64,000 bases of DNA from IMG/VR virus record IMGVR_UViG_3300046001_008198, positions 61,220-125,219 of that record; one strand, written 5' to 3'. Made by a program: the position numbers and the translations under genes. The stretch comes from a virus. A model generated the notes under the pieces. It had not been told where the DNA came from, did not search any database, and was given only the letters and a program-made list of their open reading frames with translations. Shown here piece after piece: positions 6,932 to 24,434 of the stretch (position 1 is its first letter; each line of letters starts with the position of its first letter).

Positions 6932-6944
6932 GATGATAGTAAAA
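6932..6944 (-). promoter_or_regulatory. Recurrent left-arm initiation motif, copy 1
   Basis: On the minus strand TTTTACTATCATC, two bases upstream of the ATG at 6929. It sits between an intrinsic terminator (6947-6973) and the next gene, where a new transcript must start, so a promoter role is likely. Confidence 0.65.
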
Positions 6945-6946
6945 TG

Positions 6947-6973
6947 AAAAAAGCCTACTGAGTTTCAGTAGGC
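6947..6973 (-). terminator. Intrinsic terminator
   Basis: On the minus strand GCCTACTG-AAACT-CAGTAGGC followed by TTTTTT: a perfect 8-bp stem with a U-run. It overlaps the last codons of the gene at 6955-7209 and ends that transcript just before the motif at 6932-6944. Confidence 0.88.
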
Positions 6974-7209
6974 CGAGGTAGTACCCAGTATACATCATTA
7001 GTTTGCTCGTCACGAACTAAAGGAATTTTGATTAATTCTATGTCTTTTGGGTTAATCTTAATGTTTTGATTGGTGCGGTAATAACCTTGTGCTTTATATC
7101 GAAGTGGGAAATCTTTTATGAATTGATCGGCTACTTCTGAGGAGAATTCTTGAGGTGATGCTGTAATATTATCAGTCTTATTGAAGACTATAAAGAGTTG
7201 TTGTTCCAT
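6955..7209 (-). CDS. Hypothetical protein, 84 aa
   Basis: Not recognised. The start MEQQLFIVFNKT is preferred over the ATG three codons upstream. A small alpha/beta protein with a Tyr-rich middle (FPLRYKAQGYYRTNQN) and the end YWVLPRPTETQ. Its 3' end forms the left arm of the terminator at 6947-6973, so it is the last gene of a unit that also contains the ClpS-like and HNH genes. Confidence 0.7.
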   Translation of the reverse strand: MEQQLFIVFNKTDNITASPQEFSSEVADQFIKDFPLRYKAQGYYRTNQNIKINPKDIELIKIPLVRDEQTNDVYWVLPRPTETQ

Positions 7210-7385
7210 ACAATACATCCTTCTTTTTTGTGCTTTTCATACATAAGCTCTGTTGTAGATCTTACAATGAATTTACGGTGAGGTTTCATTTTAAGTTTGT
7301 TGACATCAAAGCTTTCATAGCCTGGTAAACAACTAACTAAATGTTCAATATCGATTACTTGTTTGCGATTGGAATTTCTGATCAT
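7188..7385 (-). CDS. Hypothetical protein, 65 aa
   Basis: Not recognised. A short basic protein (MIRNSNRKQVIDIEHLV...). It overlaps the gene upstream by 4 nt (ATGA-type) and the one downstream by about 22 nt, as in the tightly packed genes around it. Confidence 0.62.
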   Translation of the reverse strand: MIRNSNRKQVIDIEHLVSCLPGYESFDVNKLKMKPHRKFIVRSTTELMYEKHKKEGCIVWNNNSL

Positions 7386-7675
7386 ACTTCTTCTAAAATT
7401 TCAGCTTCTAAATAAGCAATTATTTCTTCTTCATTGTTAGGATCTATGATTGCAAATCTATGACATGAGTAAAAACTATATGGAAAATGTGCATCGGTTA
7501 ATGTGAGTTCAGCAAGTGTGAAACCCCATGTATTTTTTCCATACTGAGTTCTATGCAACTTAGTTGCTGTATAAACTCTTTTATCTTTAACCCATAGGTA
7601 GTCAGGAATTTCAACAGGTTTTTTTGCATCATCAATACATACGACCTTGCATGGTAATTTGATTTCTTTAGCCAT
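7382..7675 (-). CDS. Hypothetical protein, 97 aa
   Basis: Not recognised. Begins MAKEIKLPCKVVCIDDAKKPVEIPDYLWVKDKRVYTATKLHR, a small beta domain typical of Bacteroidota phage proteins that seem to bind nucleic acid (W-V-K..Y.V). The end is acidic (NNEEEIIAYLEAEILEEV). It overlaps the 3' end of the ClpS-like gene by 8 nt, which suggests coupled translation. Confidence 0.7.
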   Translation of the reverse strand: MAKEIKLPCKVVCIDDAKKPVEIPDYLWVKDKRVYTATKLHRTQYGKNTWGFTLAELTLTDAHFPYSFYSCHRFAIIDPNNEEEIIAYLEAEILEEV

Positions 7676-7952
7676 TGAATTCTTTTTTTATTTCAGCAAT
7701 AAGTCCGCGTCTTTCAAGGACTGCATGCATTGGATGTATTTGTTCCCAAGATCCCATTTTAACATGGGCTTTTCCTGAATTGTGTGCAATTAGTACTATT
7801 TGTTCAACTTGCAATGGTTGGAATTGGGTTGCTTCGGTTACAGCACCGGCTACATATTCGAATGAATGTACATCGTCATTATGTAGAAATAAATGACATT
7901 CTGCAAGATGAGGATCGATCTCGGTGAGTTCTTTATAAGAGGTCTTGTTCAT
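7668..7952 (-). CDS. clpS: ClpS-like N-degron adaptor of the Clp protease
   Basis: A 94-aa protein that reads as a whole ClpS core: ECHLFLHNDDVHSFEYVAGAV, then VEQIVLIAHNSGKAHV, then HAVLERRGLIAEI. The NDD triad and the His of AHNSGKA match residues that grip N-terminal degrons in bacterial ClpS. ClpS hands N-end-rule substrates to ClpA/ClpC, so a phage copy could redirect host proteolysis. The start MNKTSYKELTEID (7952) is preferred; the longer ORF from 7988 would overlap the HNH gene more deeply. No protease gene accompanies it, so it must rely on the host's. Confidence 0.85.
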   Translation of the reverse strand: MNKTSYKELTEIDPHLAECHLFLHNDDVHSFEYVAGAVTEATQFQPLQVEQIVLIAHNSGKAHVKMGSWEQIHPMHAVLERRGLIAEIKKEFNG

Positions 7953-8358
7953 GAGCGAGTTTTGGGTTTTCAAAATGAATTTTATCATGGCAGTTACGAC
8001 ACGAGGCTTTAAAGAATTTTACCTCAGTTGTATTAATACCACGACCTTTCGAGTGATGCAAATCAGTTGCGGATCCAGTGCAACCTACCCAATTAATTTC
8101 ACAGTAAGGATGTTTATTGAGATATTCTAATCTAACTTTTAGATACTCAGCTTTAATCTTTGCTTGTTTTGGTGAAAGTTTTTTAATTGGGGTTGGTGGT
8201 TTTACTGTAGGCTTTTTTACATTTGATGCTTTGTCACTCATTTGAAGCGAGCAACTATAACTGCAGCAAGGCAACCTGTCTCCATCTATTGTTACATATT
8301 TGAAGACAGGTCTATTGTTACCACAACAAATGCACTGTTTATGTTTTCTAGCAATCAC
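7933..8358 (-). CDS. HNH endonuclease-like protein with N-terminal zinc finger
   Basis: A 141-aa protein. Residues 9-35 (CICCG...CCSYSC) form a probable zinc knuckle, followed by a basic linker. The C-terminus carries an HNH core: CEINWVGCTGSATDLHHSKGRG, FFKASCRNCHDKIHFEN. The layout resembles lambda NinG/Rap-type recombination nucleases, though free-standing HNH homing enzymes are an alternative. It overlaps its neighbours on both sides by a few bases. Confidence 0.8.
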   Translation of the reverse strand: MIARKHKQCICCGNNRPVFKYVTIDGDRLPCCSYSCSLQMSDKASNVKKPTVKPPTPIKKLSPKQAKIKAEYLKVRLEYLNKHPYCEINWVGCTGSATDLHHSKGRGINTTEVKFFKASCRNCHDKIHFENPKLAHEQDLL

Positions 8359-8924
8359 ATTGCAGCAAAGTTAGAAGGTAATAGTTTACTTTCCAAAAGT
8401 TTTTCGATAATCATACCTCTGGATATTCCTAATTCCTTGAATGAAAGTGTGCATTTAAAATTTGAATCTGTTGTAATGTCTGAGCTTAATAACTGCTTGA
8501 ATAATACAGCAGGTAAGATTTCAGGAGTTTGCTTTTTAATTTGCACAGAAACTTTAGAAGTGTTTTCGTATGAGCGCACGATTTTGAGGTCATTACTTCT
8601 TTGACTTGAAGCTGATGATAGTAAATCATTCGCCACATTACTGAAAGCTTTCAATCGGAGATTCATTATCTCTTGCTTGAAGATGTTAATTACATCTTGA
8701 GCTTTTCTGTGAGTTTTTGCTATACGAGATTTCTTTGCAGAATTCATGGTATATAATTCTTCTGGTGTGTAAACAGAGAGTCCGAACAATAAGCGATCGT
8801 AAAGATGCTGCTGTCCGTTTGATAGAGATACTGGTCCATAAGACTGTGCTAGTTTTTGGTACTCAGTTCTGATAATACGAGTTTTAGTCAGTGACGCTAA
8901 GTCCTGAAGAGAATTTGTTTTCAT
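8355..8924 (-). CDS. Hypothetical helical protein, 189 aa
   Basis: Not recognised. Largely helical, with a basic centre (MNSAKKSRIAKTHRKAQDVINIFKQEIMNLRLKAF) and a C-terminal LGISRGMIIEKLLESKLLP that may be a small helix-turn-helix. A copy of the left-arm motif sequence lies inside the coding region at 8614-8626, encoding DLLSSA. Its 3' end overlaps the HNH start by 4 nt. Confidence 0.75.
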   Translation of the reverse strand: MKTNSLQDLASLTKTRIIRTEYQKLAQSYGPVSLSNGQQHLYDRLLFGLSVYTPEELYTMNSAKKSRIAKTHRKAQDVINIFKQEIMNLRLKAFSNVANDLLSSASSQRSNDLKIVRSYENTSKVSVQIKKQTPEILPAVLFKQLLSSDITTDSNFKCTLSFKELGISRGMIIEKLLESKLLPSNFAAM

Positions 8925-8945
8925 ATAAATTTGGATTAAAGAATT

Positions 8946-9200
8946 TTATTCATCATTGAATAGAGCATCGAGATTAATCTCTACTGTTGGCTCGTCTTCA
9001 TCTGTGAGAAATTCAAGGGTTTGGTGTTGTGATGGATCTTCGATGTCTTCTTCGATGTGTTCATCAAGACTTTCGAAAGGGTTGGATGAGGCTCCTCCGA
9101 TGTTCATGCCATTTAGGACTTTCAAATCATCATCGTCCATAGCTAAAAAAGCCTCTAAGGACATGTTGATTGATTTACCATTTGGACATTGATACCTCAT
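8946..9200 (-). CDS. Small acidic protein, 84 aa
   Basis: Not recognised. The start MRYQCPNGKSINMSLEAF (9200) is chosen over an ATG nine codons upstream in AT-rich sequence. The protein is very acidic, ending in EDEPTVEINLDALFNDE. The N-terminal pattern YxCPNG...M(S)xEEFL recurs, from memory, in small proteins of Bacteroidota phages. It may mimic DNA or bind a basic partner. Confidence 0.72.
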   Translation of the reverse strand: MRYQCPNGKSINMSLEAFLAMDDDDLKVLNGMNIGGASSNPFESLDEHIEEDIEDPSQHQTLEFLTDEDEPTVEINLDALFNDE

Positions 9201-9237
9201 TGTTGCAATAATTATATATAATAACAAAAATAAGTTA

Positions 9238-9681
9238 TTAAAGTAGTTCTATAGGCTTACAGTAGTATTGTTGAATCTTTATAATTGAAGATATTACTAA
9301 ACCATCTACTATTTTAGTTGGAATTTTAACAAAAACATCCTGATTTAGAACTGAGATTTCATGTATTTCCACTACAACATAACCATTGATATCAATCAAC
9401 TTGTTGTTTTTGTGGTAGTTCATTATTTCTGTATTCCAAAGTGATTTAATTTTAATCCTAACATTTACTCCAGGAGCAAAGATGCATGGATTACCATTAA
9501 CTTTGATTGGTTTTTCAGGATTGTTTAGAAAGTTCATGAACATATCTCTCTGATCACTTCCCATTTCTGAAAGATTGAGTGCTAATTGTTTAATAATTAG
9601 TTCTTTTTTTTCTGGAAAGTTCATGAACATTTTGATAATATCAATATCTCTTTGTAAAGAGTCTTCGTTGATTCTGCTCAT
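9238..9681 (-). CDS. Hypothetical protein, 147 aa
   Basis: Not recognised. The N-terminal 60 residues are helical with a paired motif (IIKMFMNFPEKKELI / RDMFMNFLNNPEKPI); the rest looks like a beta barrel (VNVRIKIKSLWNTEIMNYHKNNKLIDINGYVVVEIHEI) with isoleucine-rich strands. No membrane segment. It starts just 2 nt after the 45-aa gene at 9684-9821. Confidence 0.75.
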   Translation of the reverse strand: MSRINEDSLQRDIDIIKMFMNFPEKKELIIKQLALNLSEMGSDQRDMFMNFLNNPEKPIKVNGNPCIFAPGVNVRIKIKSLWNTEIMNYHKNNKLIDINGYVVVEIHEISVLNQDVFVKIPTKIVDGLVISSIIKIQQYYCKPIELL

Positions 9682-9683
9682 AA

Positions 9684-9821
9684 TTAATTGATGTAACCGT
9701 ATTGAGCCATTAGTGTTGGATCAACCCCTGTGAGTTGGCAATCTAAGATGAATTCTTCATGCATTTGTGCCAATACATCATCTTGGGTCATTGGCTTTTG
9801 TTCTGTTGTTGGCTTTTCCAT
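9684..9821 (-). CDS. Short hypothetical protein, 45 aa
   Basis: The minus-strand frame reads MEKPTTEQKPMTQDDVLAQM..., ending LMAQYGYIN. It fills the gap between the terminator at 9843-9871 and the next gene, from which it is separated by 2 nt. The length is too short for automatic callers but the composition is protein-like. Confidence 0.65.
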   Translation of the reverse strand: MEKPTTEQKPMTQDDVLAQMHEEFILDCQLTGVDPTLMAQYGYIN

Positions 9822-9842
9822 TTGTGTAAATTAAGAGAATAA

Positions 9843-9871
9843 AAAAGGGAATACACGATGCATTCCCTTTT
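9843..9871 (-). terminator. Intrinsic terminator
   Basis: AAAAGGGAAT...ATTCCCTTTT forms a 10-bp stem with A and T flanks on both sides, so it could act in either direction. It separates the two signal-peptide genes (9924-10726) from the 9821-8355 genes. Confidence 0.8.
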
Positions 9872-9923
9872 GTCAATAAATTAAACTTCGTCAAGTCTAA
9901 GTTCTCCCTCCATGCAGGGGGTG

Positions 9924-10157
9924 TCACCTAGTTGGATGTCTCTCCTTTCTGCTGTAGTTAATCAATCCTTCTGTTAAGATTGTTATCAAGTTCCCTTCAT
10001 AAATATCTAGAGTATAGATTCGGGGTGTTTTAACAACAATTTCAAAGAATGGTATTGAGTTACAGAAAGCTATATTAATCGTGTTGTTGTTTTCCGATTG
10101 ATAACTTGCTGAATAAACTACAACAAGAAGGAGCAACATAGTTAGTGATGCTCTCAT
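9924..10157 (-). CDS. Small exported protein, 77 aa
   Basis: The N-terminus MRASLTMLLLLVVVYSASYQSENN is a good signal peptide (Arg, then a 12-residue hydrophobic core, then A-S/A-X sites), predicting export to the periplasm or membrane. The rest is not recognised. It follows another exported protein in the same unit. Exported early phage proteins often alter the envelope or block superinfection, which is only a suggestion here. Confidence 0.7.
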   Translation of the reverse strand: MRASLTMLLLLVVVYSASYQSENNNTINIAFCNSIPFFEIVVKTPRIYTLDIYEGNLITILTEGLINYSRKERHPTR

Positions 10158-10186
10158 CTTATATTTTTTAGATTGGTGTAAATATA

Positions 10187-10726
10187 TTAATTATTTGCAA
10201 TAAATTTATAATAGGTTCGATTTTCACTTTTGGTGTAGACAGCGTAGTCTTCTCCAACAATGATATATTCATTCTGATTATAATAAATTGTACCGTTATT
10301 TCCTAAATCAGGAATAATGTCAATGTAAGGCATGGTATAGGATCCATTTCCATCTATTCTTTCTATAATGAGGTATTTAGTTCCATCAGTTTCTTGGTAA
10401 AAGCTGACATGGCTGTATTCTCGAAGGATATTATAGAGTGGTAGATTAGGTTTGCTGATAATTAACCATCCTGAATTGCTTTTGCTGTAAATGTGTGTTA
10501 AAACTTCATTGTTTACAACATAGACTGTTGTTTTGTATTCAATCACAAGTGTTGTTAATGATGTTTTAGTAATTTCTACGGGTACTTCTGCAGTACTGGA
10601 ATTGAAATACTTGACAACATACAGGTCTTGAATTGTAACTTGTTCGGTTGGACAAGCATCTATCGGAGTTGCTTGAACTGTTGTTGCGAATAATAGAATC
10701 GCACAAATTGCAAAAAATCTTTTCAT
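10187..10726 (-). CDS. Exported beta-rich protein, 179 aa
   Basis: The N-terminus MKRFFAICAILLFATTVQATPIDACP is a clear Sec signal peptide with a VQA-TP cleavage site. The mature part is beta-rich, with Tyr/Ile strands (KTTVYVVNNEVLTHIYSKSNSGW; GTIYYNQNEYIIVGEDYAVY), and is not recognised. The motif copy at 10819-10831 lies about 95 nt upstream and probably drives this gene and the 77-aa one. Confidence 0.78.
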   Translation of the reverse strand: MKRFFAICAILLFATTVQATPIDACPTEQVTIQDLYVVKYFNSSTAEVPVEITKTSLTTLVIEYKTTVYVVNNEVLTHIYSKSNSGWLIISKPNLPLYNILREYSHVSFYQETDGTKYLIIERIDGNGSYTMPYIDIIPDLGNNGTIYYNQNEYIIVGEDYAVYTKSENRTYYKFIANN

Positions 10727-10818
10727 GGGTTTGAAGATTTAAAGATTAATACTAAATAAATAATTGTGATATATATAGGCTTTGAGGCCAAGCTGATTGA
10801 ACAGCGTGTCTTGGGTTT

Positions 10819-10831
10819 GATGATAGTAAAA
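10819..10831 (-). promoter_or_regulatory. Recurrent left-arm initiation motif, copy 2
   Basis: TTTTACTATCATC on the minus strand, beginning 4 nt after the stop of the 46-aa gene and followed by CAAACCCAAG, much as at copy 3 (CACTAAACCCAAG). It lies upstream of the exported-protein pair. Confidence 0.6.
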
Positions 10832-10835
10832 GTTT

Positions 10836-10976
10836 TTAATGTGGTACTTTACCGCCTTTTAAGGTAAACCAAATGGTGAACATTGGAATGAGGTTGATAC
10901 AAAATCTTTTATGGTATTGAGAATAATGTACACCTATCCAGAAAGCTCGCCAATTGAATAACATTCCTAATTTCAT
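10836..10976 (-). CDS. Short conserved-looking protein, 46 aa
   Basis: MKLGMLFNWRAFWIGVHYSQYHKRFCINLIPMFTIWFTLKGGKVPH, given here in two parts for length: it opens MKLGMLFNWRAFWIGVHYS and ends FTLKGGKVPH. From memory, short phage proteins with a WIG.HYS...R.CINLIP..T.W pattern are widespread in tailed phages, with no known function. Its ATG overlaps the stop of the SSB-like gene (ATGA), indicating coupled translation. Confidence 0.75.
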   Translation of the reverse strand: MKLGMLFNWRAFWIGVHYSQYHKRFCINLIPMFTIWFTLKGGKVPH

Positions 10977-11293
10977 TTGCTTTTCTTTTTAGATTTTAGG
11001 ATGAGAAATTCTGTACACTGAATGACTGTCATAGATGGATCTGAATAATCTAATCTACCTTCAATGATTACTTCCATTTGAGGAACTAGCGTATCATTCA
11101 TTATTTTAGCCATTTTTAATTTGGCGCATACATTGTGTGTTTGGATATTAGTAATGGTTGAAATCTTATTTTTAGTTTTGAATGTTTCAACTGTTTCTAA
11201 TTCCATAGATAATAAAGGACCTTTTTTAAGGTCTGTGTACATCATGGATTTTACTGTACCTATCAGAGATACTTTGTTTCTTAATGGCTGCAT
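10973..11293 (-). CDS. SSB-like OB-fold protein A, 106 aa
   Basis: Begins MQPLRNKVSLIGTVKSMMY and continues with strand-rich sequence to MEVIIEGRLDYSDP, which is the N..xLIGxV...VEGRL layout of single-stranded-DNA-binding OB folds. It lacks the acidic C-terminal tip that recruits partners in bacterial SSB and ends instead in KSKKKSK. It is one of two such genes in the arm (the other is at 12929). Confidence 0.72.
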   Translation of the reverse strand: MQPLRNKVSLIGTVKSMMYTDLKKGPLLSMELETVETFKTKNKISTITNIQTHNVCAKLKMAKIMNDTLVPQMEVIIEGRLDYSDPSMTVIQCTEFLILKSKKKSK

Positions 11294-11294
11294 A

Positions 11295-11798
11295 TCAAAT
11301 TTTTTTAAGTAAGTATTCTCCTTGTTCTGTTAATCTTGGTTCAGGAACGGCATAAACTTTATCTCCACAAATATCCATCACAAATTCAACTTCAATTTCT
11401 GTTGGTTGCATAACATGTCTTTCCAAGTAACCTTTATAAGATTTTTGAGCTTCAGGATAAGTTTTATCTTTTGAAATCCATCCAGCATAAAAAGCATTTA
11501 ATACTTGTTCCAAAGTAAACACCTTGTCTTTATTCAACTCCATTGCTTTGTTGAAGCCTATCTTAAAGCCAATTTTTTCACGAGTTTTAAAATCATGAAC
11601 ACGAGTTTTTTCATCAAGTGTTTCAAGTTCTCTAGCCAACTTCTCAACATCAACTACTCCCATTGCTTTAGCAAACTCTTCTTCACAATTTTGTTTGGAT
11701 AGTTTTTTATCTCTATTATCTCTTGAATCAGTAGATGCTATTGCCCAACTTTTATCAACATATAAGTAGAAAATATCATCTTTCTTAATTAGTTTCAT
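11295..11798 (-). CDS. Hypothetical protein, 167 aa
   Basis: Opens MKLIKKDDIFYLYVDKSWAIASTDS, a small beta hairpin, then helices with FTLEQVLNAFYAGWISKD and a C-terminal PRLTEQGEYLLKKI. From memory this layout is common in phages of Bacteroidota, without a known function. It lies 1 nt from the SSB-like gene and is cotranscribed with it. Confidence 0.78.
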   Translation of the reverse strand: MKLIKKDDIFYLYVDKSWAIASTDSRDNRDKKLSKQNCEEEFAKAMGVVDVEKLARELETLDEKTRVHDFKTREKIGFKIGFNKAMELNKDKVFTLEQVLNAFYAGWISKDKTYPEAQKSYKGYLERHVMQPTEIEVEFVMDICGDKVYAVPEPRLTEQGEYLLKKI

Positions 11799-11818
11799 AT
11801 GATTGTGTATTAGTTGTT

Positions 11819-12028
11819 TTATTTTTTTAGTGCATCATATAGTGCTGCTGTGAACAAACACGATAATAAAAATGCTAATGCAAAGAATCCTATGCATGCT
11901 CCTCGACCTTCTGGACTCCATTGTGAAATGTTGAAAGTTACAAAGTAAAAACTTACACATAAATAGATCATAGCTATTAGGATTACAAATATTGCAATAT
12001 TTGTTTTAATTAGTTGGTGTATACTCAT
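11819..12028 (-). CDS. Small membrane protein, 69 aa
   Basis: Two hydrophobic segments (about residues 11-32, NIAIFVILIAMIYLCVSFYF, and 44-65, CIGFFALAFLLSCLFTAALY) separated by a short polar loop. It starts 18 nt downstream of the motif at 12046-12058 and is the first gene of its unit. Function unknown. Confidence 0.75.
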   Translation of the reverse strand: MSIHQLIKTNIAIFVILIAMIYLCVSFYFVTFNISQWSPEGRGACIGFFALAFLLSCLFTAALYDALKK

Positions 12029-12045
12029 TTTGCTTGGGTTTAGTG

Positions 12046-12058
12046 GATGATAGTAAAT
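12046..12058 (-). promoter_or_regulatory. Recurrent left-arm initiation motif, copy 3
   Basis: ATTTACTATCATC on the minus strand, directly after the terminator at 12059-12087 and 18 nt before the ATG at 12028. This is a clear terminator-motif-gene arrangement. Confidence 0.65.
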
Positions 12059-12087
12059 AATAAACCCGGACCTGTATGAGATCCGGG
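12059..12087 (-). terminator. Intrinsic terminator
   Basis: CCCGGA...TCCGGG stem followed on the minus strand by TTTATTATTT, which runs into motif copy 3. It would end the transcript that contains the tRNA-like gene. Confidence 0.8.
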
Positions 12088-12156
12088 AATTTTCTAGTGT
12101 GCTAGAGCAGTACCTACGAAATTAAATATTTATGCTAGATATTTGGAAAAATATCG

Positions 12157-12230
12157 TGATTATGATGGGAGTCGAACCCACACCCCTGATCCGTGTACCC
12201 AGACCCGCACTACCCCAGTGCTACACAATC
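12157..12230 (-). tRNA. tRNA-like gene with an 8-nt anticodon loop
   Basis: The minus strand folds as a cloverleaf of 74 nt. The acceptor GATTGTG/CATAATC pairs over 7 bp with one G.U. Bases 8-9 are TA, the D-arm is GCAC-TGGGGTA-GTGC, and the T-arm GTGGG-TTCGACT-CCCAT has a canonical T-loop. The discriminator is A and CCA is not encoded. The anticodon arm is odd: the only good stem, GGTCT/GGATC, leaves the 8-nt loop GGGTACAC, with no U33 in the normal place, so no anticodon can be called with confidence. It could be a degenerate tRNA, an expanded-loop tRNA or a tRNA mimic. Confidence 0.6.
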
Positions 12231-12307
12231 GCCATATCAGGAATAGGTAAACCTGATAATGTAATACCAATGAAGCAGGGGGTTGCCTGACTTACACACT
12301 GGTGATA

Positions 12308-12565
12308 TTATAATGGAAATTCATCTTTGTCTTTCCACAGCTGAACGATATCTGTTGGTGATTTGGTAATCACTGTGTCAAATAATAGTTTAGCTAATGA
12401 TTCGTTGTTACCTGACAAAGTAAGGAAATCTTTTTTGGTGTGAGACTTTCCTGATTTATCAATATAACATACTAAAGTTTCGCAACTGTTGTAAGCATCT
12501 ACTGATTTGAAAATAGATTTAGCTTTAACAGTGCAGTGTTGTGGTGTTTGTGTAAGAGTATTCAT
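12308..12565 (-). CDS. Hypothetical protein, 85 aa
   Basis: Not recognised. A small soluble protein (MNTLTQTPQHCTVKAKSIFK...), with SGKSHTKKDFLTLSGNNESLAKLLFD in the middle. The 78 nt between its stop and the tRNA-like gene hold nothing I can name. It is the last protein gene before the tRNA-like gene in its unit. Confidence 0.68.
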   Translation of the reverse strand: MNTLTQTPQHCTVKAKSIFKSVDAYNSCETLVCYIDKSGKSHTKKDFLTLSGNNESLAKLLFDTVITKSPTDIVQLWKDKDEFPL

Positions 12566-12583
12566 TGTTGGTTGGTTTTGTGA

Positions 12584-12901
12584 CTATTTGAATCTACCGC
12601 CGTGATCTCGCTTTGCTAACTTTTTGAGAGCATTGTCTTTGTTCAAGGCTGATATATACACACAGTCTGGTTTCATTACTACTTTTTTGTTTGTAGATCC
12701 AGAAGAATCTTTGTTAACTACATAATCGGTTTTGGTAAACTCCGCTGGTTCAATTGTACCTGTTTCTAAATTTATTTCAAATAAAGAATGACCTCGGTGT
12801 GGATGAATACTACCAATATGTTTTTCCTGAAACTTCTGTTCTGTTTCTTTGGAGATATGAATCTCTTCACGGACTCCTAACTCTATTTCTTTACTGTTCA
12901 T
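12584..12901 (-). CDS. Hypothetical protein, 105 aa
   Basis: Not recognised. It contains IGSIHPHRGHSLFEINLETGTIEPAEFTK, a beta motif, and ends in a basic KKLAKRDHGGRFK. From memory this type of IHPHRGH...E....G small protein is seen in several Bacteroidota phages. It lies 27 nt downstream of the SSB-like gene. Confidence 0.75.
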   Translation of the reverse strand: MNSKEIELGVREEIHISKETEQKFQEKHIGSIHPHRGHSLFEINLETGTIEPAEFTKTDYVVNKDSSGSTNKKVVMKPDCVYISALNKDNALKKLAKRDHGGRFK

Positions 12902-12928
12902 GATACAAAGGTAAATAAAAATTAGTTA

Positions 12929-13213
12929 TTACAAAATTATGATGTCAGTGGCAATGACTTTACCTTTAGCAAGATAACCTTCTACAGCTAAATCAGATCC
13001 GATTCGTAGGCGATTAATAAATTTTAGGTATATGTCTCCTTTGAGTACAACTCTGTGTTGATACTTTTTTGTGATAGGTTTACCATTTCCATCCAACTGT
13101 AGAGATTTAGTTTCCAGGATAAAGCAAGTGCCTACTTTTTTAATACCTTCTTCGGTGGTTTGTTTAGGCTCAAGCGTTTTGAGAAGCTTGCCTATTAAGT
13201 TTACATGATTCAT
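12929..13213 (-). CDS. SSB-like OB-fold protein B, 94 aa
   Basis: MNHVNLIGKLLKTLEPKQ opens in the SSB manner (N.V.LIG.L), then HRVVLKGDIYLKFINRLRIGSDLAVEGYLAKGKVIATDIIIL reproduces the VEG.L strand. It has no acidic tail. It is too diverged from the 10973 gene for a recent duplication. One of the two may bind single-stranded DNA and the other serve as an accessory protein, but this cannot be decided from sequence alone. Confidence 0.72.
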   Translation of the reverse strand: MNHVNLIGKLLKTLEPKQTTEEGIKKVGTCFILETKSLQLDGNGKPITKKYQHRVVLKGDIYLKFINRLRIGSDLAVEGYLAKGKVIATDIIIL

Positions 13214-13223
13214 GTGAAATGTT

Positions 13224-13427
13224 TTACTTGGTTGTGGTTAACTCTTGTGGTTGAACTTGGGTTCTTTTAACACCATGTTCTTGTTCTATTGCAAAAAGAA
13301 TCTTGTTGGCTTCATTCATTCTGTCAACGGCTTTCATTCCGATTGCCATGTGATGATTGAATGTGTTGGCTGCATCAACCCATCTTTCATTTGCAAGTTC
13401 AAATTTTAATCTGGTTGTGTCGTCCAT
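13224..13427 (-). CDS. Hypothetical helical protein, 67 aa
   Basis: Not recognised. Helical (LKFELANERWVDAANTFNHHMAIGMKAVDRMNEANKILF), possibly a coiled-coil dimer. Its ATG is part of the motif copy 4 itself (TTTTACTATCATG), so if the motif is a promoter the mRNA would be essentially leaderless. Confidence 0.7.
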   Translation of the reverse strand: MDDTTRLKFELANERWVDAANTFNHHMAIGMKAVDRMNEANKILFAIEQEHGVKRTQVQPQELTTTK

Positions 13428-13438
13428 GATAGTAAAAG
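13426..13438 (-). promoter_or_regulatory. Recurrent left-arm initiation motif, copy 4
   Basis: CTTTTACTATCAT, fused to the start codon at 13427. Together with copy 9 this puts the start codon at the very 3' edge of the motif, a constraint for any model of its function. Confidence 0.6.
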
Positions 13439-13506
13439 TTAAAGGTTAATAAATTACCCCTCTGCATCTCAGTTGTAGGCTGTTATACCCTAAGTTAGCA
13501 CCAATA

Positions 13507-13782
13507 CTATTGAACCAACCTATAAACAAGACGTTCAGCTTCTTTGCCTTTAACGTGCTTATAAATAGTTAATTCAGTTGGTGTTCCATTGTTATCAGCC
13601 ATTCCGCTAATTGAAACAATTTCACTAACTTCAATCACATTATTAGGGTCTGTACCTTCATAAACTATAAATGGGAAAGGCAAAGAACCTGCCTTAAATT
13701 CCTTAATTTCATCATCAGTAAAATAAGTACTGGTGCTAACATCGGTTTGGCAAAATTGCCGTTTTGTTTCTTCGTTTGACAT
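13507..13782 (-). CDS. Hypothetical protein, 91 aa
   Basis: Not recognised. An acidic N-terminus (MSNEETKRQFCQTDVSTSTYFTDDEIKEFKAG) and a beta-rich remainder (LPFPFIVYEGTDPNNVIEVSEIVSISG). It lies alone between two gene-poor stretches; its own promoter would be in the structured region upstream (13783-14157). Confidence 0.7.
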   Translation of the reverse strand: MSNEETKRQFCQTDVSTSTYFTDDEIKEFKAGSLPFPFIVYEGTDPNNVIEVSEIVSISGMADNNGTPTELTIYKHVKGKEAERLVYRLVQ

Positions 13783-14157
13783 TTTATCTAAATTTTAAAG
13801 TTTGTACTACTAATGAAGTTTTGTGTTCGGCAACTTCGCCAAGCCGAGAAACGTTATCATTAACTATTTAACATAGTTCACTTACAACTGCTCACCCTTG
13901 GGAGCTGATTAACTCATCTAGCTATATGCTACATTAGTTTCGGTTAATCAGGTGGTTTCACATCTTATGTGGCTGGTTTCCACTACATCCCGTGCACTAG
14001 GAATAAGAAGTCTTTATATCCACGTGAGAATGGTGCATTAATAATTTGACGGCTCCCGTATTTCAGAGAGCCGTTCAATAATTGGGTTTGTAGTACTTGC
14101 TACAAATATGTCCATCAACGCTAGGTTGGATAAAGCCGAAGCTATTTCATGATTTTT
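13783..14157 (-). other. 375-nt gene-poor, hairpin-rich region
   Basis: No ORF over about 25 codons. At least six hairpins are visible: TCGGC/GCCGA (13827-13847), AACTAT/ATAGTT (13862-13878), TGATTAAC/GTTAATCA (13906-13950), CACAT/ATGTG (13959-13971), ACGGCTC/GAGCCGT (14049-14074) and TTTGTAG/CTACAAA (14087-14106). None carries a convincing U-run on the minus strand and no group I core or T-loop is visible. It may encode a structured RNA or act as a long 5' leader of the 91-aa gene. Confidence 0.55.
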
Positions 14158-14361
14158 TCATAGATTTGTTCTAGTAATAATTTTTTCTGTTTGTCCCCAT
14201 GAAAATTCAGAGGGATTGAGATAATCTAATTTGAATGCTTTTTTGAATACATCTGCAATCATTACTTCATCGAATTCGTCTTCGAATGTTACTTCAGATT
14301 TATTAACATCAAGGATGAATGTTATCAATGATGCTAAATCAATTAATACAAGTGTTATCAT
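14158..14361 (-). CDS. Hypothetical protein, 67 aa
   Basis: Not recognised. A hydrophobic N-terminus (MITLVLIDLASLITFILDV) that could be a membrane or core helix, then an acidic helix. It is preceded by motif copy 5 with a 10-nt leader. Confidence 0.65.
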   Translation of the reverse strand: MITLVLIDLASLITFILDVNKSEVTFEDEFDEVMIADVFKKAFKLDYLNPSEFSWGQTEKIITRTNL

Positions 14362-14371
14362 AATTGGGGTG

Positions 14372-14384
14372 GATGATAGTAAAT
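14372..14384 (-). promoter_or_regulatory. Recurrent left-arm initiation motif, copy 5
   Basis: ATTTACTATCATC on the minus strand, 10 nt before the ATG at 14361, in the short gap after the 98-aa gene. No terminator hairpin is obvious here. Confidence 0.6.
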
Positions 14385-14400
14385 ACTATTAAATATATAA

Positions 14401-14697
14401 CTATAGTACTTGATAAATGAATAATGGATATCTCATTTCACCGTGTACTGAATCTATTTGAAAGAATATAGCCATTCCTAAGAAATTACATTCTGTAGAA
14501 TCAAATGCTTGACCGTCTGGAACTATCTTAAATTTGAATATTCTATGGTAGATCATATCAGGATTGTGAGAGAAATAGATTCGGAGGTCAAGGTTAACAC
14601 GTTCTATACTTAGAATTTTGGCATCCGATGGTAAGTTCACTTCATGAGTTTTTTCACATGGAAACTTAATTGTGATATATGTTATGATCGTATTCAT
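14401..14697 (-). CDS. Hypothetical protein, 98 aa
   Basis: Not recognised. Beta-rich (TIKFPCEKTHEVNLPSDAKILSIERVNLDLRIYFSHNPDMIYHRIFKFKIV), with an aromatic end. It lies 11 nt downstream of the 119-aa gene and is cotranscribed with it. Confidence 0.7.
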   Translation of the reverse strand: MNTIITYITIKFPCEKTHEVNLPSDAKILSIERVNLDLRIYFSHNPDMIYHRIFKFKIVPDGQAFDSTECNFLGMAIFFQIDSVHGEMRYPLFIYQVL

Positions 14698-14708
14698 ACA
14701 GTTACGTT

Positions 14709-15068
14709 TTATAAGAGTCCTATCTTTTCAAGGAAATCTTTGTTAGTAAATCGATGTTCAAAGAATTCAATTACATAGACATCTTCATCAGTAATAAGAT
14801 GGTCAATGGCTGTGATATGGTCGCCGTCATTGTATTGGCGAAGAAGATTAAGCATTGCATCAACAAGGTAATCGATGTGTTCATACGTAATGAATTGTCG
14901 AGCACTCTCGATAGCTACTGCCTGAGCAAAATACTTGTTAATATCCATTCTGTGGTAGTCAAAGTCTTTCTCAGAATTATCAGCGTCAAGGATTATTAGT
15001 CGTTTGATAATGTTTGGAAGCTCTGTAGCACTGAGGATGTGTGTGAGGTAGAGATTATTTGGTGTCAT
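14709..15068 (-). CDS. Hypothetical helical protein, 119 aa
   Basis: Not recognised. The start MTPNNLYLTHILSATEL (15068) is preferred because motif copy 6 lies 14 nt upstream; the longer ORF from 15125 would read through the motif and the neighbouring gene. Helical, with acidic stretches (YNDGDHITAIDHLITDEDVYVIEFFEHRF). It slightly overlaps the last codons of the upstream paralogue gene. Confidence 0.7.
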   Translation of the reverse strand: MTPNNLYLTHILSATELPNIIKRLIILDADNSEKDFDYHRMDINKYFAQAVAIESARQFITYEHIDYLVDAMLNLLRQYNDGDHITAIDHLITDEDVYVIEFFEHRFTNKDFLEKIGLL

Positions 15069-15408
15069 TATTTGGTGGATTAAATGATAGTAAATACCAG
15101 TATATTTTTTCATCATGCATTCCATGTAAGTCGAGAATGCTGAATGCTGTTTGGTGGTAATTGATTATTGGTTCAGATGATATTCCGAATGGAAATCTTT
15201 CATTTTTGTAATCGTAATAAGTTCCAACCCAATTTTCATATTTGAAAATATCATGAGTGCCCTGACTATAATCAGGACCTTGAGTGATAACAAATACATT
15301 TAGATCCGGACGATATGTTGATACCCAGATATGTTTTAATGTTTCTGATTTATCTGTAGTAATCAATAACTTCACACCAGGTTTTGTTTCAAAAAGGATA
15401 TGTGCCAT
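15055..15408 (-). CDS. Paralogue-family protein 1, 117 aa
   Basis: The first of three tandem small genes sharing an N-terminal signature, here MAHILFETKPGVKLLITTDKS, and a C-terminal YWYLLS. Unlike the other two it reads past that point for eight more residues (FNPPNNDTK) because the stop is lost. The family is not recognised. The DNA encoding LLS is itself motif copy 6, which stands before the next gene. Confidence 0.75.
   Translation of the reverse strand: MAHILFETKPGVKLLITTDKSETLKHIWVSTYRPDLNVFVITQGPDYSQGTHDIFKYENWVGTYYDYKNERFPFGISSEPIINYHQTAFSILDLHGMHDEKIYWYLLSFNPPNNDTK
15083..15095 (-). promoter_or_regulatory. Recurrent left-arm initiation motif, copy 6 (inside a 3' coding end)
   Basis: ATTTACTATCATT on the minus strand, also read as Leu-Leu-Ser near the C-terminus of the gene at 15055-15408, and 14 nt upstream of the ATG at 15068. 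Confidence 0.6.
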
Positions 15409-15411
15409 AAT

Positions 15412-15747
15412 TTATGAGATTAAGTACCAATAGAATATATCTGGATGTACAAAATCATATCCTTTGAGAATTGATTCTAACGATTCATGTTTATAATATG
15501 TTGATCCTGCTACAGAATTGTAAATAATAAACTGAGTATTGATTCTGTTTGGTGTACCTGTTGTACTAAGAAATGCATCAATAACATTAGGTTTTGTTAT
15601 AGTCCACAGTGTTTCTTCATTTGTATACAACACAGTTAATTTGTCATAATAGAAGAAAGTTGAGAATGCAAGCACTAGATTAGGACATTTTTCTTGAACA
15701 ACAAGCAAGCGTACTCCGGATTTAGGTTCTACGATAATTCGTTTCAT
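15412..15747 (-). CDS. Paralogue-family protein 2, 111 aa
   Basis: The middle copy of the tandem family: MKRIIVEPKSGVRLLVVQEK at the start and FYWYLIS at the end. The codons for YLIS (TACTTAATCTCA) are a decayed version of the motif seen at the equivalent site of the other two copies, and this one stands before the gene at 15055-15408. The middle of the protein has diverged, so the duplication is old. Confidence 0.75.
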   Translation of the reverse strand: MKRIIVEPKSGVRLLVVQEKCPNLVLAFSTFFYYDKLTVLYTNEETLWTITKPNVIDAFLSTTGTPNRINTQFIIYNSVAGSTYYKHESLESILKGYDFVHPDIFYWYLIS

Positions 15748-15759
15748 AGGCGCTGGGTG

Positions 15760-16074
15760 TTATGATAGTAAATGCCAATAGGTCTCACCTTTGGATGTGA
15801 ACATATAATGATTTAGCATTTCAAGTAGGCATTCACTTACAGTTGCACAATAATCTGATGGTTCACGGATGTTTATGAAGTTACTGTCCCACGGCAATAA
15901 GTTAACACCTTTTACGGTAATGAGGTAATGGAATTCTGGTGGTGCAAAGTAGAGTGTGAAATCTTCAGGGCCTGTAAACATTTCAGTAGTGAATACATGA
16001 GGGAGCATTTTTGATTTAGTCTTTGTTAGCAACAATCGCACTCCTGGTTGTGGTTCAATTATGAGGTGGTTCAT
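15760..16074 (-). CDS. Paralogue-family protein 3, 104 aa
   Basis: The third family member: MNHLIIEPQPGVRLLLTKTKS and a terminal TYWHLLS followed by TAA. The protein's last codons form motif copy 7. It lies 9 nt after the gene at 16084-16440, in the same unit. Function unknown; the conserved ends with variable centre suggest a shared scaffold with a changing binding face. Confidence 0.75.
   Translation of the reverse strand: MNHLIIEPQPGVRLLLTKTKSKMLPHVFTTEMFTGPEDFTLYFAPPEFHYLITVKGVNLLPWDSNFINIREPSDYCATVSECLLEMLNHYMFTSKGETYWHLLS
15761..15773 (-). promoter_or_regulatory. Recurrent left-arm initiation motif, copy 7 (inside a 3' coding end)
   Basis: ATTTACTATCATA on the minus strand, encoding the terminal Leu-Leu-Ser of protein 3 and its stop, and 13 nt upstream of the ATG at 15747. 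Confidence 0.6.
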
Positions 16075-16083
16075 AAGGCTTGG

Positions 16084-16440
16084 TTATTTATCTTCTTTCA
16101 TTATATGAATTTCATCGATGGCGAATGTAATGGATGGATCCATCTTACTTTTGATTGTTAATTCAGCCATTTGTTGAGCATCGAAAGCATCAGTAGCTTT
16201 GACAAAGAAGTCTGCCGTGTATGTAACTTTGAATGATTTAAGTTGACGTAGTTCTTTGATGTATGCATAAACTGTTTTGAATTTTTGCTTACGCTCAATA
16301 GGGTCTAGTATTTTGTCAACTGTTGTAGTGATTGATGCGTCACCATTTGTATATAATATAATACAGGCTCTTTGTAAAAAGGGAAATTTCTTTTTTATCT
16401 TGGTGACTAAGTTCTTGTGTTCAATTGGTGAGAGTTCCAT
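16084..16440 (-). CDS. Hypothetical protein, 118 aa
   Basis: Not recognised. An alpha/beta protein (LVTKIKKKFPFLQRACIILYTNGDASITTTVDKI) whose C-terminal half, FFVKATDAFDAQQMAELTIKSKMDPSITFAIDEIHI, recalls the DUF4494-type repeat 'sA.sftDAE.r...' of the protein at 24435. Its ATG immediately follows motif copy 8. Confidence 0.72.
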   Translation of the reverse strand: MELSPIEHKNLVTKIKKKFPFLQRACIILYTNGDASITTTVDKILDPIERKQKFKTVYAYIKELRQLKSFKVTYTADFFVKATDAFDAQQMAELTIKSKMDPSITFAIDEIHIMKEDK

Positions 16441-16453
16441 GATGATAGTATTA
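16441..16453 (-). promoter_or_regulatory. Recurrent left-arm initiation motif, copy 8
   Basis: TAATACTATCATC on the minus strand, abutting the ATG at 16440. Any transcript beginning at the motif would be leaderless or nearly so. Confidence 0.6.
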
Positions 16454-16501
16454 ATAGGTGAAAATTCAAAAGCGGCAGGTACTAATCTTTCTGAATTACT
16501 T

Positions 16502-16636
16502 CTATACTATAAGAGATAAAAGAAAAGATCTGTCATGCATGTAGTCTTCAAAGATAGAGTCTTGAGGTATGAGGTCATGTTCTATGCAATGTTCGAATAG
16601 CTCTGTAGTGGTCCAATCGTAGTAGGGAGTGTCCAT
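16502..16636 (-). CDS. Short hypothetical protein, 44 aa
   Basis: MDTPYYDWTTTELFEHCIEH... ending RSFLLSLIV. The start at 16636 is preferred to the ORF's first ATG (16738), because a motif-like TTACTAT runs directly into this ATG. Composition is protein-like; function unknown. Confidence 0.6.
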   Translation of the reverse strand: MDTPYYDWTTTELFEHCIEHDLIPQDSIFEDYMHDRSFLLSLIV

Positions 16637-16646
16637 ATAGTAATAT

Positions 16647-16748
16647 TTAAATTGAATAAATGGTCGGTTTGAGTAGGTATGAAGAGGTGAGGAATATAGG
16701 GATAGGTTGTCCCTCAGTATCACACAAAGAGAAGCCAAAACCTCGCAT
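16647..16748 (-). CDS. Possible short protein, 33 aa
   Basis: The minus strand reads MRGFGFSLCDTEGQPIPIFL... ending KPTIYSI, 10 nt before the next ATG. Plausible but supported only by position and composition. Confidence 0.35.
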   Translation of the reverse strand: MRGFGFSLCDTEGQPIPIFLTSSYLLKPTIYSI

Positions 16749-16934
16749 TATTGTAATGCTATGCTTAATAAAGAGGATTAAAGTATCAAATATCCCCGGG
16801 TGGAGACTAACTTTGAAAAGATTAATCCCTTATAAACATTGAGAAGTATGTAAAAGTATACTATTGGATTCCTAAAACAGTACAAAAGGAGATATTGCTA
16901 CCTCCTAATGCATTGTTCCTCTCTTTACACAAGG
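16749..16934 (-). other. Gene-poor stretch with one terminator
   Basis: No ORF is supported. AGGAG...CTCCT (16887-16906) followed on the minus strand by TTTT is a likely terminator for the gene at 16935-17123. A second weak hairpin AGTAT/ATACT lies near 16845-16865. A motif-like start site for the 33-aa ORF is not evident. Confidence 0.5.
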
Positions 16935-17123
16935 TTATTGTTCATCTAATTCGATATAACCTAGTATGAATAGGTCATTTGTATTAGCTGAAATACTGAT
17001 TGATTCTGTTTCTACTTCTTCAATCATAAACTTAATAGCGAATTTCTTTGCTATTGCTTTGAATTGGTAGTACTCCTTTAAACTAAGGTGTATGATTGTG
17101 GTAATGATTTCTGCAGTTTTCAT
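16935..17123 (-). CDS. Hypothetical protein, 62 aa
   Basis: Not recognised. MKTAEIITTIIHLSLKEYYQFKAIAKKFAIKFMIEEVETES: two helices then an acidic beta end. It is the only convincing gene between 16.75 and 17.68 kb and lies about 235 nt downstream of motif copy 9. Confidence 0.65.
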   Translation of the reverse strand: MKTAEIITTIIHLSLKEYYQFKAIAKKFAIKFMIEEVETESISISANTNDLFILGYIELDEQ

Positions 17124-17357
17124 AAGCTTATTTATTGTGGTTTATAGCCTTATTTAATTAATTATGAGATAGTTACGCATTGTAACTTAAAGTAATAGTT
17201 AAACCCTTTCACGGTACAGGCATGGTCTTGCTGGATGAGTGATGTATTAGTAGTTGGGCTTGTAATACGTAAGGGTTGCTTGTAATAGGATAGTAGCTTG
17301 GGTCCTGGAGTATGAGATCATCTCTGTTGTTTCGGCTTTCCTGATTACAGGCGGGGT

Positions 17358-17370
17358 GATGATAGTAAGG
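17358..17370 (-). promoter_or_regulatory. Recurrent left-arm initiation motif, copy 9
   Basis: CCTTACTATCATC on the minus strand, in the gene-poor region upstream of the 62-aa gene. Confidence 0.55.
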
Positions 17371-17618
17371 TAGCACATTCTTGATTGGGCCTTCTTCGAA
17401 GAAGCTAGTAGCTAGGGTCCCGAAGGATGTGAAGGTCAGGAAGTGCATACCATGGGACTGTAATTACTACGAGTGCTGTTCCGTGTTAGCACGGGTGAGC
17501 ATTGGGTGTAGAGACTGTTGCCAAGATCGCATGTATGTCAACCCTCGGAGAGCATAGGTTGCCTAGGCGGCAGGACGAAGTCCTTCTAAGAGCCGACACC
17601 AAGTTGGGAGTGAGTAGC

Positions 17619-17631
17619 GATGATAGTAAAA
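17619..17631 (-). promoter_or_regulatory. Recurrent left-arm initiation motif, copy 10
   Basis: TTTTACTATCATC on the minus strand, starting right after the terminator at 17632-17651. No protein gene follows for 250 nt. Confidence 0.65.
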
Positions 17632-17651
17632 CAAAGCCCCCGTTAAGGGGC
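17632..17651 (-). terminator. Intrinsic terminator
   Basis: GCCCC-TTAACG-GGGGC followed on the minus strand by TTTGTTTT, which merges with motif copy 10. It ends the transcript of the 255-aa gene. Confidence 0.85.
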
Positions 17652-17677
17652 GATGTTCAGTACCAAGGATATCTGTG

Positions 17678-18445
17678 TTACTCAATAACCAAACCTCCGA
17701 AGGCTTTAGTCTTTGTAGTAGCATGTACTTCCATTTTTGCAATAGCCTCTGATTCTCGTTGTTTAATCTGCTCTTCAGGAGAAAGTTGAGCAAATGATTC
17801 ACGAATTTCTTGGTTTGCAAGAGTCAATGATAGTAAAGAAGGCGAAGCCGAAGTCAAGATGCTCGGATTACCTTTCAATAGATTATCATCGTATTTGATT
17901 GGAACAGTACTTCCGACAAAGGATTTACCCTTAGCCTCAAACGCTTTGATTAATTCATCAAGGTTTGTGAACACCTGTTCAACACGAAACACTTTATCTC
18001 CAAAGCGAATTGCGATTCTACGGCGACCGTAGTTCCAATTCTCAAGATGTCCTTTCGGATTCTCAGGAGTAATGTGTTTATCAAATGTGTAAGATTTCTT
18101 TTTCTCAGGATTTTGTCTGTGATAAAGTAATCTTTCAGTATCAACCTTCGCACTAGCAACAACACAATGCACCATAGGTACAGAGATATTTGATTCAGTA
18201 ATGAAGTGTTGAATATCCACACCTTCAACAGTAATATCGTCACGGACAATATCAGAAGTGTTAGGTGTTTCAACATCAGCGCCCCAACCTAAAGAAGTAG
18301 CCAAAGCATTAAGCTTTGCTTGAACTAAAGGGTTGTTAGATGCTGACGCACAAAGAGTTGTCAATGCAGTTTTAGATTTAACACCTAAAGCTAATTTAAT
18401 GTCCGATGACAACGGACAAGCCTGTAAAAATTCTGAAGCATTCAT
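17678..18445 (-). CDS. Hypothetical protein, 255 aa
   Basis: Not recognised. The start MNASEFLQACPLSSDIKLALG (18445) is preferred; the 26 codons before it are poor protein sequence. The N-terminal half is helical (ALTTLCASASNNPLVQAKLNALATSLGW), the middle is beta-rich (NYGRRRIAIRFGDKVFRVEQVFTNLDELIKAFEAKGKSF), and the end helical and charged (LSPEEQIKQRESEAIAKME). A motif-like copy with a small GGC/GCC hairpin lies inside it at 17826-17838 (SLLSL). It may be a DNA- or RNA-binding protein, which is a guess. Confidence 0.75.
   Translation of the reverse strand: MNASEFLQACPLSSDIKLALGVKSKTALTTLCASASNNPLVQAKLNALATSLGWGADVETPNTSDIVRDDITVEGVDIQHFITESNISVPMVHCVVASAKVDTERLLYHRQNPEKKKSYTFDKHITPENPKGHLENWNYGRRRIAIRFGDKVFRVEQVFTNLDELIKAFEAKGKSFVGSTVPIKYDDNLLKGNPSILTSASPSLLSLTLANQEIRESFAQLSPEEQIKQRESEAIAKMEVHATTKTKAFGGLVIE
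17826..17838 (-). promoter_or_regulatory. Motif copy inside a coding region
   Basis: CTTTACTATCATT on the minus strand within the 255-aa gene, preceded by the mini-hairpin GGC-TTC-GCC. It has the same hairpin-motif order as the intergenic copies, so it could be functional, or the peptide SLLSL could have produced it by chance. Confidence 0.35.
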
Positions 18446-18569
18446 ATGAATGAGTATTTGGTAAAAAGAAGATGTCTTTAAGTAGGCACATCGATTCCTT
18501 GATACAATTCGTGTATGTATCAAACAGAGATATATAAATTAGCGAGCGAAGCCAAAATATCTCGAAGAG

Positions 18570-18590
18570 ATTCAATCTAAGTCAAAGGTT
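18570..18590 (-). repeat. 22-nt dispersed repeat, copy 1
   Basis: AACCTTTGACTTAGATTGAAT on the minus strand, with one mismatch to copies 3 and 4. It lies upstream of the 255-aa gene. Confidence 0.75.
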
Positions 18591-18600
18591 GAGAGTAGTG

Positions 18601-18650
18601 AAAAACACTTGATTACCGAGCACCAATTAAGGGACAAGACAATCAAGTGT
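18601..18650 (-). terminator. Intrinsic terminator with 10-bp stem
   Basis: ACACTTGATT...AATCAAGTGT followed on the minus strand by TTTTTC. Downstream comes a decayed motif (CACTACTCTC) and a copy of the 22-nt repeat, then the 255-aa gene. Confidence 0.85.
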
Positions 18651-18682
18651 AAACCTAAGCTGAAACTATGAAAACTGAATAC

Positions 18683-18703
18683 AATCCAATCTATGTCAGA
18701 GGT
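18683..18703 (-). repeat. 22-nt dispersed repeat, copy 2
   Basis: ACCTCTGACATAGATTGGATT on the minus strand, with two or three mismatches, 13 nt downstream of motif copy 11. Confidence 0.75.
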
Positions 18704-18716
18704 GAGGATGAGGGTT

Positions 18717-18729
18717 GATGATAGTAAAC
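18717..18729 (-). promoter_or_regulatory. Recurrent left-arm initiation motif, copy 11
   Basis: GTTTACTATCATC on the minus strand, directly after the terminator at 18728-18749 and upstream of repeat copy 2. Confidence 0.65.
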
Positions 18730-18749
18730 AAAACTCCCCGTAGGGAGTT
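18728..18749 (-). terminator. Intrinsic terminator
   Basis: AACTCCC-TACG-GGGAGTT followed on the minus strand by TTGTTT, merging with motif copy 11. It ends the ORF-less unit that starts at motif copy 12. Confidence 0.85.
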
Positions 18750-19041
18750 GTTGGGTTTCTGCCGTGGCCCACACGCCTATCGAGGTTTGTTTCTTGGGAG
18801 CTGACTTGACCTCGTAGGTACAGTAACATTCAGCTCTTGCATTCCGACAACATTGTCAGAGAAGATTTGGTTGGAGTTCCCCTCTCAACCATGTAGTCGC
18901 AGTGTTCTCAGTGGTTATGATAGATGAGCTCTGCGCGCACCCTCTATCCTGTCCTCGTTGTGCACCATACCATATCGGTCCATCGAGTCAAGGATACTCA
19001 ATCGGTGGTGAATATGTCGAACCAACAACAACTCACAATAT

Positions 19042-19063
19042 AATCCAATCTAAGTCAAAGGTT
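19042..19063 (-). repeat. 22-nt dispersed repeat, copy 3
   Basis: AACCTTTGACTTAGATTGGATT on the minus strand, about 28 nt downstream of motif copy 12. Identical to copy 4. Confidence 0.8.
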
Positions 19064-19091
19064 GAGCGAAGCGAGAGTGGGTGTGATGAGC

Positions 19092-19104
19092 GATGATAGT
19101 AAAA
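19092..19104 (-). promoter_or_regulatory. Recurrent left-arm initiation motif, copy 12
   Basis: TTTTACTATCATC on the minus strand, immediately after the UUCG-loop terminator at 19104-19122. The unit it would start runs about 360 nt to the terminator at 18728-18749 with no convincing ORF. Confidence 0.65.
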
Positions 19105-19122
19105 GAAAAGTCCCGAAGGACT
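19104..19122 (-). terminator. Intrinsic terminator with UUCG tetraloop
   Basis: AGTCC-TTCG-GGACT followed on the minus strand by TTTCTTTT, which overlaps motif copy 12. It ends the transcript of the 19186-19326 gene. Confidence 0.85.
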
Positions 19123-19185
19123 ATATCTTTTCGACTCCCTTGCTTTCTTGTGGTATGAGAACATCCACTCATCAGATTCATCAAT

Positions 19186-19499: not shown

Positions 19500-19544
19500 A
19501 GTTAAAGTATTGTGGGAGAGTATCTCATCTCCCTTGTTAGTTTA

Positions 19545-19754: not shown

Positions 19755-19784
19755 ATCAGTTCAGTTTAAGTTTATAATCATGGT

Positions 19785-20180: not shown

Positions 20181-20191
20181 AAATTTGAATT

Positions 20192-20410: not shown

Positions 20411-20414
20411 AGTT

Positions 20415-21311: not shown

Positions 21312-21313
21312 GT

Positions 21314-24167: not shown

Positions 24168-24178
24168 TTTAAATTATA

Positions 24179-24430: not shown

Positions 24431-24434
24431 TTTT

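Follow-up and report, generated by a model that had tools for sequence, protein, structure and literature searches.

Why does a 12-nucleotide (nt) motif, TTTACTATCAT(C), recur along one arm of a viral genome, on a single strand and often at the heads of genes? The motif lies in a 64,000-nt window comprising bases 61220–125219 of virus record IMGVR_UViG_3300046001_008198 (125,219 bp in total), for which a first-pass annotation had proposed a phage-specific promoter. Our analysis of the sequence points to a directional, single-element early promoter of a crAss-like phage, most likely read by a virion RNA polymerase (probability of about 0.6). The promoter part of this reading is well supported by sequence, and its recognition by the virion enzyme is what we infer.

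A Strand-Specific Motif in the Left Arm

The genome is organized as two divergent arms that meet near window position 20,100. On the minus strand, the left arm has small genes by the junction and replication genes farther away, the latter including a DNA polymerase, a helicase, RadC, and a DnaA-type domain. By synteny with crAss001 and phi14:2 (PMC8375218), we take the junction-side small genes to be early and use the word in this sense throughout.

Exact TTTACTATCAT occurs 12 times in the window, spanning 6.9–19.1 kb, and 13 times across the record, with a strand split of 0 plus to 13 minus. A dinucleotide model predicts 0.017 copies of this 11-mer on the minus strand of the early arm. The most over-represented 10-mer of that arm is TTACTATCAT (14 observed vs 0.08 expected), and 10-mer counts per arm gave no comparable word in the other arms. 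What emerges is a conserved directional element restricted to the arm taken as early and standing at the heads of units. The twelve sites of the first-pass annotation are all real, with positions accurate to within 1 nt, and their single orientation holds throughout. The copies at 16441 and 17358 are variants, and those at 13425, 15083, and 15761 lack the final C. Two intragenic copies (8614–8625 and 17826–17837) and a coding look-alike near 5042 had been missed. The right arm, said to have no matching intergenic copy, holds only two near-copies, both on the minus strand. The sites and neighboring terminators are as follows.

about 5042: ATTACTATCATC, at a coding position
6932–6943, minus: motif TTTACTATCATC, 2 nt upstream of the ATG at 6929 and 8 nt past a terminator stem
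6952–6974, minus: intrinsic terminator-like hairpin immediately upstream of motif 6932
8614–8625, minus: exact motif within gene 8355–8924, function doubtful
10819–10830, minus: motif, 92 nt upstream of the ATG at 10726
12046–12057, minus: motif, 17 nt upstream of the ATG at 12028
12065–12087, minus: terminator hairpin, upstream of motif 12046 and downstream of the transfer RNA (tRNA) gene 12157–12230
13425–13436, minus: motif TTTACTATCATG, its final three letters being the ATG of gene 13224–13427
14372–14383, minus: motif, 10 nt upstream of the ATG at 14361
15083–15094, minus: motif TTTACTATCATT, overlapping the end of the upstream gene, with an ATG 14 nt on; may be partly coding
15761–15772, minus: motif TTTACTATCATA, overlapping the upstream paralogue's stop codon, with the ATG at 15747 following 13 nt on
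16441–16452, minus: variant AATACTATCATC, abutting the ATG at 16440 (gene 16084–16440)
17358–17369, minus: variant CTTACTATCATC, with an ortholog in relative G001 (L071 869–880)
17619–17630, minus: motif at the head of a non-coding unit, starting 5 nt past a terminator stem
17636–17651, minus: terminator hairpin
17826–17837, minus: intragenic motif copy, function doubtful
18717–18728, minus: motif, 3 nt past a terminator stem
18732–18749, minus: terminator hairpin
19092–19103, minus: motif, the first copy of the arm, 5 nt past a terminator stem
19109–19122, minus: terminator hairpin
40596, minus: right-arm near-copy TTTACTTTCAT
57767, minus: right-arm near-copy GTTACTATCAT, antisense within a gene
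record 42249–42260, outside the window: further motif copy at a gene head, 14 nt before an ATG

Seven of the 15 near-exact early-arm copies lie 0–17 nt upstream of a predicted ATG or overlap it, a placement shared by 4.8% of all positions (P = 2.7e-6, an approximate value because the gene starts were hand-picked from the list of open reading frames). The first-pass annotation had placed starts 0–18 nt downstream in most cases; this describes those seven copies, but others (10819, 17358, 17619, 18717, and 19092) head long leaders or non-coding units. The copies at 15083 and 15761 overlap the 3′ ends of paralogous genes arranged in tandem, and their conservation may be partly coding because the same letters also encode shared L-L-S residues.

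Sequence Context of the Motif

Five copies (6932, 12046, 17619, 18717, and 19092) start 3–9 nt past a same-strand intrinsic terminator stem, and 10 of 29 strict terminators, pooled from the early regions of the window and its relatives, have the motif within the next 25 nt. A motif placed directly after a terminator would hardly act in the RNA of a transcript that started farther upstream; most likely it lies at the promoter of the next unit. Base composition also shifts at the motif, from 17% C and 22% G upstream to 41% C and 10% G in the 20 nt downstream. No −35 box was found above shuffled sequences when we tested for TTGACA or TTTG, and the arrangement of a sigma-70 promoter is not seen: for a −35 hexamer 15–19 nt upstream of the −10, the mean best match was 2.76 of 6 positions vs 2.90 in shuffles. 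Shine–Dalgarno sequences, judged by eye, are mostly missing at gene starts in both arms. The upstream hairpins were considered as part of an N4-like promoter and rejected, as about half of the copies have none.

In genes 13224–13427 and 16084–16440, the ATG lies inside or against the motif. Both start codons had been described as fused to it; the copy at 13425 ends in ATG, and the copy at 16441 abuts one. If these copies are promoters and the starts are correct, the RNA would begin inside the motif. Under the mechanism that we favor, each copy would start a short transcription unit comprising a single gene, a few genes, or a non-coding RNA, and several units would finish at an intrinsic terminator just ahead of the next copy. 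The RNA would probably start within the motif or at its 3′ edge, and its C/A-rich, G-poor 5′ end would often be almost leaderless and lack a Shine–Dalgarno sequence. The motif would most likely be read by a two-barrel RNA polymerase that is packaged in the virion and encoded at 16434–27935 of the record.

A Virion RNA Polymerase Homologue

Phages of the crAss-like group are known to bring their own RNA polymerase into the cell. The record belongs to this group by its crAss-type portal, terminase, and head protein (PHROG matches); the portal matches crAss001 gp20 (E = 8.9e-11) and has relatives in Cellulophaga phages phi17:2 and phi4:1, Leptolyngbya phage Lbo-JY46, and gut crAss-like phages. 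A giant DxDxD polymerase protein in the structural arm, a further mark of the group, is also present: outside the window, a 3,833-residue open frame (record 16434–27935, plus strand) contains DYDID, within a catalytic motif that reads GADYDIDK vs GSDFDIDK in the phi14:2 protein, which is the solved polymerase PDB 6VR4. When a profile of the phage family was searched against PDB, 6VR4 was the sole match (E = 1.8e-31), and the matching stretches are colinear. The suggestion that a crAss-like virion polymerase serves this phage is thus borne out as far as a homologue is concerned, but we infer both its packaging in this phage and its reading of the motif. On the C-terminal side, the giant protein also has a YbiA/NADAR-like domain (residues about 2470–2604 of the searched fragment; E = 3.1e-6).

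Conservation in Related Phages

In the close relative G001, the covered 2–3 kb of the early arm contain three copies, and the one orthologous to window 17358 is kept despite diverged flanks. Three intergenic exact copies occur in G020 and one in G005, which have in common a small gene headed by the motif. The following gene lies in the right arm of the window and directly behind the motif in the early arm of G020 and G005.

35401–35709, plus: small gene (102 amino acids)
L073 17671–17967, minus: the same gene
L072 1733–2035, minus: the same gene

As a search route, this gene led to other lineages without the element, in which coding look-alikes were the only matches.

Thirteen further contigs were gathered through a right-arm protein, independently of the motif; the portal of these relatives is 53–54% identical. 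At these loci the core TACTATCA[TC] occurs 43 times on the early strand vs 0 on the opposite one, although several contigs are near-duplicates and the independent number is about half. Whole-record scans of relatives likewise gave one motif orientation per record. A prominent form in the thirteen contigs is TTTACTATCACT, which follows TTCG-loop terminators and precedes a C/A-rich tract. Other copies there (GTTACTATCATCA) have G-rich sequence downstream or are intragenic, so that the copies need not all be the same thing.

Most polymerase carriers whose early arm was covered have the motif; it is missing in G006 and G019, where one exact copy, in G019, was dropped as intragenic. Because each of the two main branches of the polymerase tree includes carriers of the motif, whereas G006 and G019 lack it, the motif probably dates far back in the group and was lost or changed in some lines, as judged from a small tree rooted on one very distant sequence. 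The distant phages phi14:2, Lbo-JY46, phi17:2, csAssE-Sib, and cr111 show the motif at background counts only, and no counterpart emerged from de novo word counts made in the early regions of G006, G019, phi14:2, and Lbo-JY46. Among the matches listed for the 14-mer TTTTACTATCATCC across IMG/VR, we saw scattered single hits; exact copies recurred at two loci, where they are antisense within genes.

Alternative Explanations and Known Systems

A phage-specific promoter, as originally proposed, fits best because of the strand bias, the terminators, the position at gene heads, the lack of a −35, the C-rich downstream tract, and the conservation in relatives despite diverged flanks. Its main rival is an early promoter for the host RNA polymerase, acting alone or with a phage factor through the −10-like TACTAT, as in T4 late promoters. 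TACTAT does resemble a −10 box, and single elements without a −35 are known for factor-directed host polymerases. We nevertheless regard this explanation as unlikely, if still a serious competitor: the −35 is missing, near-invariance covers all of TTTACTATCA and so exceeds a −10, sigma-70 region 4 (PF08281) found no match in the phage while controls worked, and the phage has its own polymerase homologue. An element acting in RNA at transcript heads, whether in processing, antitermination, pausing, or as a 5′-leader translation enhancer, would suit the copies 0–17 nt upstream of an ATG and the C-rich, G-poor tract, which would be unstructured RNA like a rho-loading site or a ribosome-friendly leader. 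This possibility, which the first-pass annotation had raised in the form of RNA processing or translation start, is improbable, because a transcript from upstream would meet the terminator before the several copies that lie 3–9 nt past its stem, and other copies are at least 90 nt from the nearest start or stand before non-coding units.

The virion polymerase of P23-45 has been credited with a conserved 26-nt motif at termination sites (PMC10770324), and copies between genes and adjoining hairpins could likewise mark transcription ends, through termination or pausing by the phage polymerase. The chances of this are slim: copies 15083 and 15761 come before the upstream gene's stop codon or lie on it, hairpins are missing at many copies, and the composition shift is on the downstream side. 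A chance or codon-driven word is refuted for the set by the expected 0.017 copies in the arm, the single strand, the lack of enrichment in the larger coding arms, and the conservation in relatives, although four coding copies encode L-L-S and single intragenic copies may be chance.

Several observations weigh against a promoter read by the virion polymerase. Two exact copies (8614 and 17826) are plainly intragenic. The only phage with a studied enzyme, phi14:2, has no motif enrichment, and the near-complete G006 and G019 have the polymerase homologue without the motif, although G020 of the same branch has it. The polymerases of carriers are only about 34–41% identical to that of the window phage, so a shared recognition site is not guaranteed. 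A host factor may also take part.

Known systems offer partial parallels. In phi14:2 (PDB 6VR4), as in our phage, the structural arm has a homologous polymerase gene at its end and the early arm occupies the opposite strand; phi14:2 differs in the motif, which is not enriched there. The early promoters of AR9 and other phiKZ-like phages (AAATATATATTAT-6N-G) also consist of a single AT-rich element that is strongly conserved at early genes and has been ascribed to a virion polymerase (PMC5312081), but that polymerase is multisubunit, the sequence is different, and transcription starts at a fixed 6 nt downstream, whereas the motif here has no conserved base downstream. P23-45 shares a two-barrel virion polymerase and one conserved motif common to relatives with the enzyme, and its AT-rich pre-early promoters have been ascribed to the tape-measure-fused polymerase gp96 (PMC10770324); its polymerase lineage and host are different, and its transcription starts were mapped. 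For two-barrel virion polymerases of crAss-like phages, no promoter sequence was found in the literature searched, which did not include the phi14:2 polymerase paper.

A Putative Structured RNA Element and Other Features

The stretch between motif copies 17619 and 17358 is non-coding and contains a conserved element resembling a structured RNA, which recurs in relatives.

17485–17598, minus: conserved structured RNA-like element
L252 1755–1858, minus: same element
L254 5921–6030, minus: same element
L255 5768–5868 and 5637–5754, minus: same element
L258 6679–6783, minus: same element
L259 6423–6546, minus: same element

Contigs of nine relatives, some of them near-duplicates, contain this element, single or sometimes in tandem; it invariably occupies the early strand and has a motif copy downstream. 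It includes TTCG hairpins, and in one stem two pairs show compensatory changes. Its model was built from most of the scored sequences, and scores on these are not independent. A Rfam scan of window 1–36000 gave no family at 17485–17598. Folded as whole pieces, the non-coding units 18732–19091 and 17370–17618 were no better than shuffles.

A more specific proposal, which we hold tentatively and at slightly less than even odds, is that the motif is a 12-bp promoter of a crAss-like virion polymerase with an internal start and (near-)leaderless early RNAs, that its TACTATCA core is conserved across polymerases about 34–41% identical, and that it also drives a new family of structured non-coding RNA. 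The variant series (TTTACTATCATC, TTTACTATCACT) and the paired polymerase sequences would allow direct tests of how this enzyme class recognizes its promoters, and the motif could serve as a marker for early genes of uncultured relatives.

A second conserved non-coding block follows gene 14158–14361 (window 13790–14160, minus; fold z-score −2.5), with short blocks of 88–96% identity in distant relatives (L255 4606–4566 and 4436–4396; L073 14398–14373). Near the left end, group I intron-like matches (853–1125 and 137–256, minus) score below the gathering threshold. The tRNA gene at 12157–12230 (minus) was found with Rfam (37.8 bits) and not reported by ARAGORN. Finally, the first early units contain a repeat, CCTTTGACTTAGATTGGATT, at 18570–18601, 18684–18715, 19043–19074, and 19786–19817 (minus), and G001 and L255 have repeated sequences of their own in the corresponding region.

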